A DNA stretch of 47,359 nt from Alphaproteobacteria bacterium (GTDB lineage Bacteria > Pseudomonadota > Alphaproteobacteria > Micropepsales > Micropepsaceae), in NCBI GenBank assembly GCA_947445215.1, contig CANFDA010000003.1:1-47359 (forward strand), written 5' to 3'. Below are positions 1,721 through 38,535 of this stretch, in pieces. Position numbers and translations under genes: made by a program. Under the pieces are notes generated by a model. It made no database searches and had not been told where the DNA came from. It worked only from the letters and a program-made list of their open reading frames with translations. Every line of letters begins with the position of its first letter. Position 1 is the first letter of the stretch.

Positions 1721-1846
1721 TCCTTTTCCTTCCCCGCCCGCTTTAGTATTGCTCTGCCCCACGGGCGGCCAGCAAAAGTTGCAGACTTTTGCGTGGGCCG
1801 CGCGACAATAAAAAATGGGCCGCGGCCCAAAAGGGGTATTTCAGGC

Positions 1847-1963
1847 ATGGCCTATAAAGTTGCCGTAGTAAGCGCGACCGGGAGCGACGGCCAGAAAAAG
1901 TGCGAAGCGGTTTTGCGTCCGGCCGCGCGACCCAACAAAAGAGAGATTCAACTTGGCTTATAA
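1847..1963 (+). other. 38-aa upstream ORF mimicking the Asd N-terminus; overlaps the asd start by 11 nt
   Basis: MAYKVAVVSATGSDGQKKCEAVLRPAARPNKREIQLGL* versus Asd MAYKVAVVGATGNVG; AAGGGG SD-like sequence upstream; TAA at 1961-1963 lies inside the asd start region. Confidence 0.55.
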
Positions 1964-2975
1964 AGTTGCCGTAGTAGGCGCGACGGGAAATGTCGGGCGC
2001 GAGATGCTGCGGGTGCTGGCCGAGCGCCAATTTCCCTTCAGCGAAGTGGTGGCCCTGGCTTCGACCCGCTCGGTCGGCACCGAGGTCTCGTTCGGCGATG
2101 ACGCCATCCTCAAGGTCAAGGCGCTGGATTATTACGATTGGAAGGGGACCGATCTCTGCCTGATGTCGGCTGGCGGCGACATCGCCAAGGAATGGGCCCC
2201 CAAGATCGCCGCCACCGGCTGCATCGTGATCGACAATTCCAGCGCCTGGCGCATGGACCGGGCCGTGCCGCTGGTGGTGCCCGAGGTTAACGCCGACGCC
2301 CTGCTGGAAATCAAGAAGGGCATCGTCGCCAATCCTAACTGCTCCACCGCCCAGCTGGTGGTCGCCCTGAAGCCGCTGCACGACCTGGCGAAGATCAAGC
2401 GGGTGGTGGTCTCGACCTATCAATCCGTCTCGGGCGCGGGCAAGGACGCGATGGACGAACTCTTCCGCCAGACCCGCGCCGTCTTCGTCGCCGATCCGGT
2501 GGAAGTGGGCGTGTTCACCAAGCAGATTGCCTTCAACGTCATTCCGCACATCGACGTCTTCCTGGACGGCGGCAGCACCAAGGAAGAGTGGAAGATGGCG
2601 GTAGAGACTCAGAAGATCCTGGATCCCGACATCCAGATCACCGCCACTTGCGTGCGCGTGCCGGTCTTTATCGGCCATAGCGAAGCGGTGAATATCGAGT
2701 TCGAGAACCCCATCACCGCCGAGCAGGCGCGCATTGCGCTGCGCGCCGCGCCGGGCATCCTGGTGGTCGACAAGCGCGAGGATGGCGGCTACGCCACGCC
2801 ACTGGAATGCGCCGGCGAGGATGCCACCTATGTCAGCCGCATCCGCAAGGACCCGACCGTGGACCATGGCCTGTCGCTGTGGATCGTCGCCGACAATCTG
2901 CGCAAGGGCGCGGCGACCAACGCCGTGCAGATCGCCGAAGCCCTCATCAAACGCAAACTGCTCAGGAGCGCCTAA
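1953..2975 (+). CDS. asd: Aspartate-semialdehyde dehydrogenase (TTG start)
   Basis: VAVVGATGNVGREMLRVLAERQFP, NPNCSTAQLVVALKPLHD, VSTYQSVSGAGKDAMDEL are characteristic motifs. Confidence 0.95.
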   Translation: MAYKVAVVGATGNVGREMLRVLAERQFPFSEVVALASTRSVGTEVSFGDDAILKVKALDYYDWKGTDLCLMSAGGDIAKEWAPKIAATGCIVIDNSSAWRMDRAVPLVVPEVNADALLEIKKGIVANPNCSTAQLVVALKPLHDLAKIKRVVVSTYQSVSGAGKDAMDELFRQTRAVFVADPVEVGVFTKQIAFNVIPHIDVFLDGGSTKEEWKMAVETQKILDPDIQITATCVRVPVFIGHSEAVNIEFENPITAEQARIALRAAPGILVVDKREDGGYATPLECAGEDATYVSRIRKDPTVDHGLSLWIVADNLRKGAATNAVQIAEALIKRKLLRSA

Positions 2976-25847: not shown

Positions 25848-27377
25848 TCAGGCCTCGCGCTTGAGCAGGGAGTGTCCGGTCATCGCGGCGGGCGCGGGCA
25901 GGCCCATCAGGTCGAGCATGGTGGGCGCGACATCCGCCAGCCGCCCATTCTGCAGCGATCCGCGCGGGCCGTTCACCACGATCACCGGCACATCCAGTGT
26001 GGTGTGGGCGGTGAAAGGTTCCTTGGTGTGCGGGTCTTCCATCATCTCGATATTGCCGTGATCGGCGGTGACCAGCATGACGCCGCCCATCTTTTCGATG
26101 GCGATGCGCAAGCGGCCCAGCGCCCCGTCGATGGTCTCCACCGCCGTCAGCGCCGCTGCCATGATACCGGTATGGCCCACCATGTCGGGATTGGCGTAGT
26201 TGCAGACGATAAGATCGTATTTGCCGGACAGGATCGCCGCTTCCAGCTTGTCAGTGACTTCGGGCGCACTCATGGCGGGCTGGAGATCATAGGTCGCCAC
26301 CCGGGGGCTGGGGACCAGGATACGGTCCTCGCCATCGAACTGTGTTTCACGTCCGCCATTCAGGAAGAAGGTGACATGGGCGTATTTCTCGGTCTCGGCG
26401 ATGCGCAGCTGCTTCAGGCCGCGGCCCGCAATCACCTCGCCCAATGTCTCGCGCACATCTTCCGGCGGAAACACGGACGCCATCAGCGCATTCAGCTTTT
26501 CCGAATATTCGGTCAGGCCGGCGGCGGCGGCGAATTTCACCATCCGTCCGCGCGCGAAGCCTTCAAAGGCGGAATCGAGCAGCGAGGCGGAAATCTCGCG
26601 GGCGCGGTCGGCGCGGAAATTTCCGAACAGCAGCACATCGCCGTCTTGCGCCCCGGCATATTCTTCCAGCACCACGGGCAACAGGAATTCATCAGTGACA
26701 TCGGCGGCATAGGAAGCGTCAATCGCCGCCAGCGGATCGGCGAAGCGGGCGGCCTCGCCATTGACGATGGCGGCATAGGCCTTCTCCACCCGGTCCCACC
26801 GCTTGTCGCGGTCCATGCCATAAAAGCGGCCGCACAGCGTCGCCAGCCGTACGCCCGAAATGCCCGCGATGTCGCCCAGGAATTTCTCGACAAAACCGCG
26901 CGCGCTTTTCGGCGGCGTGTCACGGCCATCGAGGAACGCATGAATGAAGACTGGCAGGCCTGCCGCCGCCTTCACCAGCGCCGCGATGTGATCCTGGTGT
27001 GAATGCACGCCGCCCGGAGACATCAGTCCCATGATATGCAACGCCCCGCCTGTACTTTTCGCTTTGTTGATGAGATCGACCAGCACCGGGCGCGAGGCCA
27101 GCTCGCCTTCCTCGATGGCGACATCGATACGCGGCAGGTCCTGCGCCACGACGCGGCCGGAACCGATATTCATGTGGCCGACTTCGGAATTTCCCATCTG
27201 GCCGCGCGGCAACCCGACCGCTGCGCCGGAGGTGGCCAGCAGCGCATAGGGGCTGTCGGTCAGCATGCGGGTGAAATTGGGCGTCCGCGCTTTGGCGATG
27301 GCGTTGTCTGCGGCGTCTTCCGGACGCCAACCCCAGCCATCGAGAATGCAAAGCAAGGCAGGGCGCGGACGAGTCAC
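25848..27377 (-). CDS. gpmI: 2,3-bisphosphoglycerate-independent phosphoglycerate mutase (GTG start)
   Basis: RPALLCILDGWGWRPEDAADNAIAKARTPNF ... GNSEVGHMNIGSGRVVAQDLPRID ... VTADHGNIEMM. Confidence 0.96.
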   Translation of the reverse strand: MTRPRPALLCILDGWGWRPEDAADNAIAKARTPNFTRMLTDSPYALLATSGAAVGLPRGQMGNSEVGHMNIGSGRVVAQDLPRIDVAIEEGELASRPVLVDLINKAKSTGGALHIMGLMSPGGVHSHQDHIAALVKAAAGLPVFIHAFLDGRDTPPKSARGFVEKFLGDIAGISGVRLATLCGRFYGMDRDKRWDRVEKAYAAIVNGEAARFADPLAAIDASYAADVTDEFLLPVVLEEYAGAQDGDVLLFGNFRADRAREISASLLDSAFEGFARGRMVKFAAAAGLTEYSEKLNALMASVFPPEDVRETLGEVIAGRGLKQLRIAETEKYAHVTFFLNGGRETQFDGEDRILVPSPRVATYDLQPAMSAPEVTDKLEAAILSGKYDLIVCNYANPDMVGHTGIMAAALTAVETIDGALGRLRIAIEKMGGVMLVTADHGNIEMMEDPHTKEPFTAHTTLDVPVIVVNGPRGSLQNGRLADVAPTMLDLMGLPAPAAMTGHSLLKREA

Positions 27378-27478
27378 AGGATCACCAGGTTGCTGGGGTT
27401 GACGCTATTGGATTGGCGGCCTTCGCCGCCGGGGCCCCATTCATCGAGAATACAGAGCAAAACAGGGCGCGAAGTCAT
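27374..27478 (-). other. 34-aa upstream ORF mimicking the GpmI N-terminus; overlaps the gpmI GTG start by 4 nt (GTGA)
   Basis: MTSRPVLLCILDEWGPGGEGRQSNSVNPSNLVIL* versus GpmI MTRPRPALLCILDGWGWRPED; TATAAT box at 27494-27499 (-). Confidence 0.6.
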
Positions 27479-27545
27479 AACAGTCGAATCCCGATTATAA
27501 GGTGGGGCGAAAATAGGGGGCCTGCCCGCCCCTGTCTATGCGGCG

Positions 27546-28126
27546 TTAGCGGAACCTGGGTCCGTTGACCCAGCAGACCAATGACCTGCGGGTGCCTGCT
27601 GTTACTGGCGTGACGCGATGCAAATTGTAGGACGGGAAAACGATGACCGTGCCAAACGTGTTGGGCGCCACAGAGATTTTGTTGGCGGCACGGATCTGCA
27701 GTTCGCCGCCTTCATAGTCGGAAGGCTCGGACAACCGCACCGAGAAGGTGAGCTGGCGCTCCTCAGGCAGGCCCCTGCCCCGATCGACATGCCAGTCATA
27801 ATGACCGCCTTCATTGCCGTGATAGACCGTGCATTGGAACGGTTCAGAAAAGCAGGTGATGTCGAACTGGTAGATGCGCTCGTTGAAAGCCAGCGCCGCC
27901 TGCTCTATCCGCATGTAAAGCCACTCTGTTTCCGGCGTCCACGCGATCTAGGCATGCTGGGTGATGCGGACCTTGTTGTTGATGTTGTTTATGGGGCGCC
28001 TGCCATGAAGCCCGCCTGGGCCGTGCCCAGCGCTTTGCCATGCGCGATGATGTTCGCCACTTCCTTTGCCGTGAAGACATTGGGGAAGCTTGCGAAAGCG
28101 TCGGTGAAATGGGCTGCGAGTACCAT
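27546..28126 (-). pseudogene. 2OG-Fe(II) oxygenase (PiuC/prolyl 4-hydroxylase-like), frameshift plus in-frame TAG
   Basis: MVLAAHFTDAFASFPNVFTAKEVANIIAHGKALGTAQAGFMAGAP / frameshift / NNKVRITQHA*IAWTPETEWLYMRIEQAALAFNERIYQFDITCFSEPFQ...; paralog of 28138-28716. Confidence 0.8.
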
Positions 28127-28137
28127 TGTCCGGGAAC

Positions 28138-28716
28138 TTAGCGGAAGGCAGGACCGGCCGTCCAGCAGACCAGCGCTTTGCGCGTTCCGCTGCGGATGGG
28201 GGTGACCCGGTGGATGACATAGGCCGGAAAAGCCACCACTGCGCCCTTAGCGCGCGTCACCTTTTCGATCCGGGTTCCGGCGTGGATTTCCAGGTCGCAG
28301 CCTTCATAGGCAGACGGGTCGGAAAGCTGGACGGAAAAGGACAGCTTGCGCAGCGCCGGTTGGGGAATCTGGTCGATGTGCCAGTCGAAATGTCCGCCTT
28401 CATCGCCGTGATAGACCGTGTACTGGAGCAGGTCGGAAAAGCCGGTGAGGTCGAACCGGTAGACATCGTTGTTGATGGTGCGCGCGATGCGCTCCATCCG
28501 CTCATAGAGCCAGGCCGTCTCCGCGACCTGCGCCACCCAGGCGGTGCGGGTGATACGGGTGGGATTCTCGGTGGTCTCGCCCGTGCGATAGGCGATGGTG
28601 GCCTTTTCCAGCCGCAGGCGGTCGCCCAGCGCCACGATGGTGTCGACCTCCGCCGCCGAGAAGGCATTCTCCCAGACGACATAGGGCCGCAAGTGCGAAT
28701 AGGGATCTGGGGTCAT
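28138..28716 (-). CDS. 2OG-Fe(II) oxygenase family protein (intact paralog)
   Basis: YTVYHGDEGGHFDWHIDQIPQPALRKLSFSVQLSDPSAYEGCDLEIHAGTR...AFPAYVIHRVTPIRSGTRKALVCW; HxD...H and R motifs present. Confidence 0.88.
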   Translation of the reverse strand: MTPDPYSHLRPYVVWENAFSAAEVDTIVALGDRLRLEKATIAYRTGETTENPTRITRTAWVAQVAETAWLYERMERIARTINNDVYRFDLTGFSDLLQYTVYHGDEGGHFDWHIDQIPQPALRKLSFSVQLSDPSAYEGCDLEIHAGTRIEKVTRAKGAVVAFPAYVIHRVTPIRSGTRKALVCWTAGPAFR

Positions 28717-37716: not shown

Positions 37717-38535
37717 TCAGATGGGCCGTACAGGAATTCCGGCATCGGCCAGCGCCGCTTTTGCCTGGGCGAGGCTGACTTCGCCGAAATGGAAGATGGA
37801 CGCGGCCAGCACGGCAGATGCATGGCCTTTTGTGACACCGTCCACCAGGTCCTGCACATTGCCGACGCCGCCCGAGGCGATCACCGGCACCGGCACCGCA
37901 TCGGCCACGGCGCGCGTGAGCGCCAGGTCATAGCCGGACTTGACGCCGTCGCGGTCCATCGAGGTGAGCAGCACTTCGCCCGCACCGAAGCCGACCAGCC
38001 TACGGGCATGTTCCACCGCATCGATGCCGGTCTCGCGGCGGCCGCCATGGGTGTAGATTTCATAGCGCCCCTTTTCGTTGGTCGCACGGCCGGACGGCGA
38101 ACCGCTGCGCGCTTCGCCTGGCCGATGCTCCGGGCGCCACTTGGCGTCGATGGCAGCGACGATGCACTGGCTGCCGAATTTCTCCGCCGCTTCGGCGACG
38201 AACTCAGGCCGGGCCACGGCGGCGGAATTGATCGAGACCTTGTCGGCCCCCGCCAACAGCAGGGCGCGGATGTCTTTCAGTTCGCGCACGCCGCCGCCCA
38301 CGGTCAGCGGCATGAAGCAGACTTCCGCCGTGCGCCGCACCACATCCAGGATGGTGCCACGATTTTCATGGGTGGCCGTGATGTCGAGAAAGCAGAGTTC
38401 ATCGGCCCCGGCGGCGTCATAGATGATCGCCTGCTCCACCGGATCACCGGCATCGCGCAGGCCTTCGAAATTGATGCCCTTGACAACGCGGCCATCCTTC
38501 ACGTCGAGGCAGGTAATGATGCGGACCTTAAGCAT
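37717..38535 (-). CDS. hisF: Imidazole glycerol phosphate synthase subunit HisF
   Basis: [34 protein letters not shown] ... [14 protein letters not shown] ... [16 protein letters not shown]. Confidence 0.96.

Follow-up and report, generated by a model that had tools for sequence, protein, structure and literature searches.

Why should gpmI be preceded by a short open reading frame that repeats its own N-terminus and ends exactly on its start codon? The question is raised by the window, a stretch of 47,359 nucleotides analysed over its whole length. Coordinates below are window positions; the window's own genome is denoted G000, and the other genomes with G numbers belong to the same genus of uncultured alphaproteobacteria.

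The gpmI leader and its ancestral position

The mimic leader (27374..27478, minus strand; 34 aa plus TGA) starts with the ATG at 27478-27476 and encodes MTSRPVLLCILDEWGPGGEGRQSNSVNPSNLVIL. Its TGA stop (27376-27374) overlaps, as GTGA, the GTG (27377-27375) that starts gpmI (25848..27377, minus strand; 509 aa; TIGR01307, 656 bits against a cutoff of 331). The initial annotation described this 34-codon frame and its overlap with gpmI, and both descriptions hold to the base; it was equally right that a second gene has the same layout. This gene is asd, with a mimic ATG at 1847 and an overlap with the TTG at 1953. When upstream translations across the window were compared with the first 30 aa of each ORF, gpmI (score 62) and asd (58) gave the top two matches, the best unrelated one scoring 45. 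The resemblance of the gpmI mimic to the gene is not a chance one.

Two copies of the N-terminal coding sequence are present on the minus strand. The native copy, X (27435..27471, 37 nt), ends exactly at the CCCC of an insert and is offset by 104 from the second copy, X' (27331..27367), which lies inside the working gene. The insert consists of an F-type hairpin, CCCCGGCGGCGAAGGCCGCC (27415..27434, minus strand), situated between X and X', and of a remainder (27378..27414, minus strand) which, judging from the sequence and its alignment with G006, contains an SD-like GGTGAT and the context of the new GTG start. The insert with its palindrome is placed after codon ~14 of the native gpmI start, and a second complete gene start follows. 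We consider it likely that the mimic is the native 5' end of gpmI, displaced by a palindromic insert together with a second gene start and supplied with an insert-encoded tail.

The promoter points to the same position. The form TRGACA-N17-TATKTT (here TAGACA-N17-TATTTT, 27510..27538, minus strand) is kept in 21 of 28 gpmI loci against a background of 8e-5 per 200 bp. From its -35 box to the CILDGWG codons there are 62-107 nt in loci without a leader and 181-188 nt in those with one (in G031 the promoter was not recognised). The mimic keeps the ancestral promoter spacing and hence sits at the former position of the gene start; the native copy also retains the ribosome-binding region. The TATAAT that the initial annotation took for the promoter of the leader is present (27499-27494, 15 nt 5' of the mimic ATG); however, it occurs at that position in G000 only, which rules it out in favour of the conserved promoter. 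Upstream of gpmI we also observed two adjacent genes similar to PKHD-type Fe2+-dependent dioxygenases (27546-27914 and 28138-28716, minus strand; NF003974, below cutoff), and in several relatives a similar gene ends immediately 5' of gpmI.

A match to gpmI was found in 59 of 100 related genomes. Equivalents of the leader are present in G006, G031 and G051 in addition to G000, and the remaining same-genus loci that were read have none. All four leaders continue from CIL.xWG into CCCCGGCGGCG..GCCGCC and end in an overlap with the real start (GTGA in three, ATGA in one); each is a single open frame up to that start, though the offset between the copies varies by genome. In the gpmI tree the carriers fall into three lineages (G000 with G006; G031; G051). 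Either the insert originated here several times, or it is old and has often disappeared again when the repeats recombined.

The same layout at other genes, and the inserted elements

At asd (all coordinates on the plus strand), the mimic ORF (1847..1963) encodes MAYKVAVVSATGSDGQKKCEAVLRPAARPNKREIQLGL, and its stop at 1963 lies beyond the TTG start of the working copy (1953..2975; NF011456, 512 bits). A copy of a dispersed repeat, element E, is found between the two starts (1881..1933). Another E copy, older or diverged, precedes the native start (1766..1807), and because of it the region can also be read as a tandem repeat of E plus the gene start. G006, whose Asd is 96% identical, has an empty site here, and the native RBS is retained in the G000 mimic copy. 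Many genomes of the genus also contain a second asd homolog, 40-47% identical (G000:C35:5245-6231 and paralogs), in which the matched stretch often has an internal stop codon.

An unbiased search for spaced direct repeats covered 2.39 Mb from three genomes (G000 sampled to 41%). It recovered asd and gpmI, added four more genes duplicated at the 5' end and also picked up a case at a 3' end. The layout is therefore not confined to the two loci of the initial annotation, and the proposal made there, that 5' ends are recurrently duplicated and then diverge, has the support of six or more genes from three genomes, gpmI being affected in four genomes. The order at each duplicated gene is the native start, a short palindrome-containing insert and the working gene. 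In pheA of G031 the insert is E-like and the overlap is TAATG; the second pheA N-terminal match beside the gene occurs in this genome only. The rutA-like gene of G006 has an ATGA overlap and a third kind of palindrome. In ettA of G000 the insert is E, read in frame through the element. In a gene of G031 the palindromes are composite and the leader stops early; this gene, presumably DUF486-like judging from its sequence, has no overlap, and ettA has none either, which leaves four of the six genes with one. The rutA and DUF486 inserts are not assigned to a counted repeat family.

In the 2.39-Mb run the distant-offset control yielded 0-1 hits for each set; an earlier, smaller run at a different offset had given four control hits in G031, owing to sequences repeated there at longer range. 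Other Alphaproteobacteria (0.46 Mb) gave nine scan hits, within long ORFs and mostly low-complexity coding repeats; other bacteria (0.91 Mb) gave 16, several of which resemble tRNA or intergenic repeats.

Mirror cases occur at 3' ends, where the gene end is present twice, F lies between, and one copy abuts the CCCC end exactly (L226, L231, L235). The carriers are one gene present in both G031 (where the repeat is 91 nt long) and G055, and a gene of G025 that we take, again from its sequence, to be AhcY-like. At 5' and 3' ends alike, the architecture is X-element-X', with the native stub outside and the working gene inside. The palindromes between the copies and the 3'-end versions indicate an event in the DNA itself, at the ends of genes, and not a leader-peptide system.

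E has a consensus near GGAGCGNCGGCC-stem/loop-GTCNGGCCGCGCGACC, a length of 52-60 nt and imperfect ends (GGAGCGNCGGCC/GGCCGCGCGACC). It is present in 24 copies per 787 kb of G000 (~30 copies/Mb) and in 11 per 800 kb of G006; the same profile found none in 800 kb of G031 and none in other bacteria. The inserts of asd, ettA and pheA are E or E-like. A flanking duplication bounded by the element is seen at just two of the 24 G000 copies, which means that E is not generally accompanied by a target duplication. One copy lies in frame inside hisF (38071-38131, minus strand) and adds ~20 residues, like a Rickettsia palindromic element. In 69 genus genomes the F hairpin, counted with the stricter family pattern CCCCGGCGGCGGAN{0,1}GCCGCC, occurs at 17 sites spread over 12 genomes, against 0 for a backward control; the insert at gpmI, with few copies, is not an abundant repeat. 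A number of F sites are simple hairpins between or within genes, and in several genomes F hairpins occupy the short interval that separates an SDR-like gene from the one after it (L229, L232, L237, L238), the hairpin unit of L238 being in tandem repeat. With E and F inserts, at most ~2 nt separate the end of the native copy from the left end of the element; the distance from X to the CCCC end is 0 in every duplicated F case.

Divergence of the copies and the origin of the stubs

Over nine pairs of mimic and real copies, 35 of 83.5 synonymous sites (42%) and 13 of 249.5 nonsynonymous sites (5%) differ, giving a dN/dS of 0.09. A neutral local duplicate predicts ~64 nonsynonymous changes (P<0.0005). 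The copies have diverged as orthologs do, and a local duplication that was simply neutral can be rejected; gene conversion does not explain the nonsynonymous deficit, since it resets both classes. This divergence suggests either that the leader is constrained or that each copy acquired its changes as a working gene, in a lineage of its own, before the two were joined. The 3'-end stubs, which follow the stop codon, differ at 17 of 40.7 synonymous and 17 of 142 nonsynonymous sites, a similar but weaker deficit in a small set. Two of the three carry a synonymous stop-codon swap, and the 91-nt core of L226 is nearer to neutral. The deficit in these stubs modestly favours divergence before joining over a constrained leader.

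We tentatively prefer, at somewhat less than even odds, an origin in which an element-flanked allele of the same gene recombined with the resident one. This allele, homologous on its gene side, would have been joined to the resident gene where the element ends, and the 5' (or 3') end of the resident would have remained as a stub; stubs would appear at gene ends because an event persists only if one complete gene is left. A rather less probable course is that an element inserted and duplicated a long local stretch of its target (35-91 bp), after which the mimic evolves neutrally. It agrees with the native copy ending at the element, with the asd X' starting at most 2 nt from the other end of E, with the asd copies being most alike each other (27/30, against 24-25/30 to G006, counted by eye) and with the 91 nt of L226 at ~95% identity. 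The nonsynonymous count given above is against it, and so is the ettA copy, which begins 65 nt beyond E. That the whole pattern is an assembly chimera or a chance resemblance is hardly credible: many of the genomes are fragmented MAGs, but the gpmI leader occurs in four separately assembled genomes, E occurs in dozens of copies, and the scan controls are near zero.

It is also tempting to see the mimic peptide as a regulatory or coupling upstream ORF maintained for its amino-acid sequence. The low dN/dS could mean such a constraint, the stop/start overlap is found at four of six genes (gpmI in all four cases, asd, pheA and rutA), and one open frame is kept to the real gpmI start despite the variable offset. 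We nevertheless find this unlikely. Six unrelated genes are affected, two of them without an overlap; at gpmI, conserved residues are lost (the metal-ligand Asp is Ala in G006, and the neighbouring Gly is Glu in G000); the 3'-end stubs, apparently untranslated, are also short of nonsynonymous changes. The gpmI leader is not conserved with its gene, being missing from most same-genus gpmI loci; the asd leader was not found in ~20 relatives readable at the locus, and the pheA match is limited to one genome. A conserved RNA switch was rejected on z-scores of +0.65, -0.37, -4.05 and +0.64 for the four gpmI leaders, i.e., there is no folding signal in three of them, and an Rfam search of the window gave no match apart from one tRNA. 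Still more doubtful is a novel process in this genus by which an element-flanked second start or end of a gene is repeatedly joined to the resident gene at the palindrome, and by which mimic leaders arise that are under constraint and regulate essential metabolic genes through translational coupling. Translational bypassing, in which ribosomes hop from X to X' across the hairpin and both copies feed one protein, is very improbable: the take-off and landing sequences are near-identical with a hairpin between them, but the working gene has its own GTG or ATG start and an SD-like site, one copy would be expected to relax while both appear constrained, and the frame offsets differ among genes.

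If the mimic is the displaced native 5' end, ribosomes would load at the native RBS and translate the mimic with its element-encoded tail, and the working gene would be reached by termination-reinitiation at the GTGA, ATGA or TAATG overlaps or via its own SD. The coupling or feedback proposed in the initial annotation can be retained in its first half as plausible though not universal; feedback finds no support in the residue losses and the folding scores. A regulatory role of the mimic leaders is hypothetical.

Comparison with known systems

Palindromic repeats tagged with CGTC (REP) or GTAG are abundant in Alphaproteobacteria; they lie mostly just 3' of genes and in some cases inside ORFs, many at N-termini and some at C-termini, and the CGTC-REP design is a CGTC tag, an 8-9 bp stem with AT pairs first, and a CCA tail (PMC3733652, Di Nocera et al. 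2013). E and F are likewise short palindromes near or inside alphaproteobacterial genes; however, E (52-60 nt) has another layout and F has no tag, so neither shows this design. No gene-end duplication is described in PMC3733652, and the stem "duplicat" is missing from its text. With MITEs the elements share a short, non-autonomous form between direct repeats and a dispersed multicopy occurrence (24 copies of E, 17 sites of F). They differ in that the repeats here are not short and of fixed length (35-91 nt, variable, missing at 22 of the 24 E copies in G000) and in that the copies have diverged like orthologs. Rickettsia palindromic elements (RPE) are inserted in unrelated metabolic genes in a manner compatible with gene function (review PMC10969869). 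The E copy in hisF is such an in-gene insertion, and the inserts at gpmI and asd are not; RPEs lengthen the protein in frame, whereas here the gene end occurs twice around the element.

Neither recurrent gene-end duplication nor long target duplication at palindromic elements is described in the literature searched, to which many subscription papers do not belong. If confirmed, the ortholog-like divergence of the copies would be the trace of recombination with relatives at such elements, and no description of this was found in that literature either. Stubs of a gene's own end at palindromes are a concrete and testable source of new bacterial upstream ORFs and non-ATG starts. They are also a warning for annotation, since a start site or a "leader peptide" called close to one of these elements may be a stub.

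The upstream ORF of iraD (PMC5574718) mediates CsrA repression and is a short ORF coupled to its gene by termination-reinitiation. The leaders described here are likewise short upstream ORFs, and their stop/start overlaps suggest a similar coupling. They differ from iraD in copying the N-terminus of the very gene that they precede.
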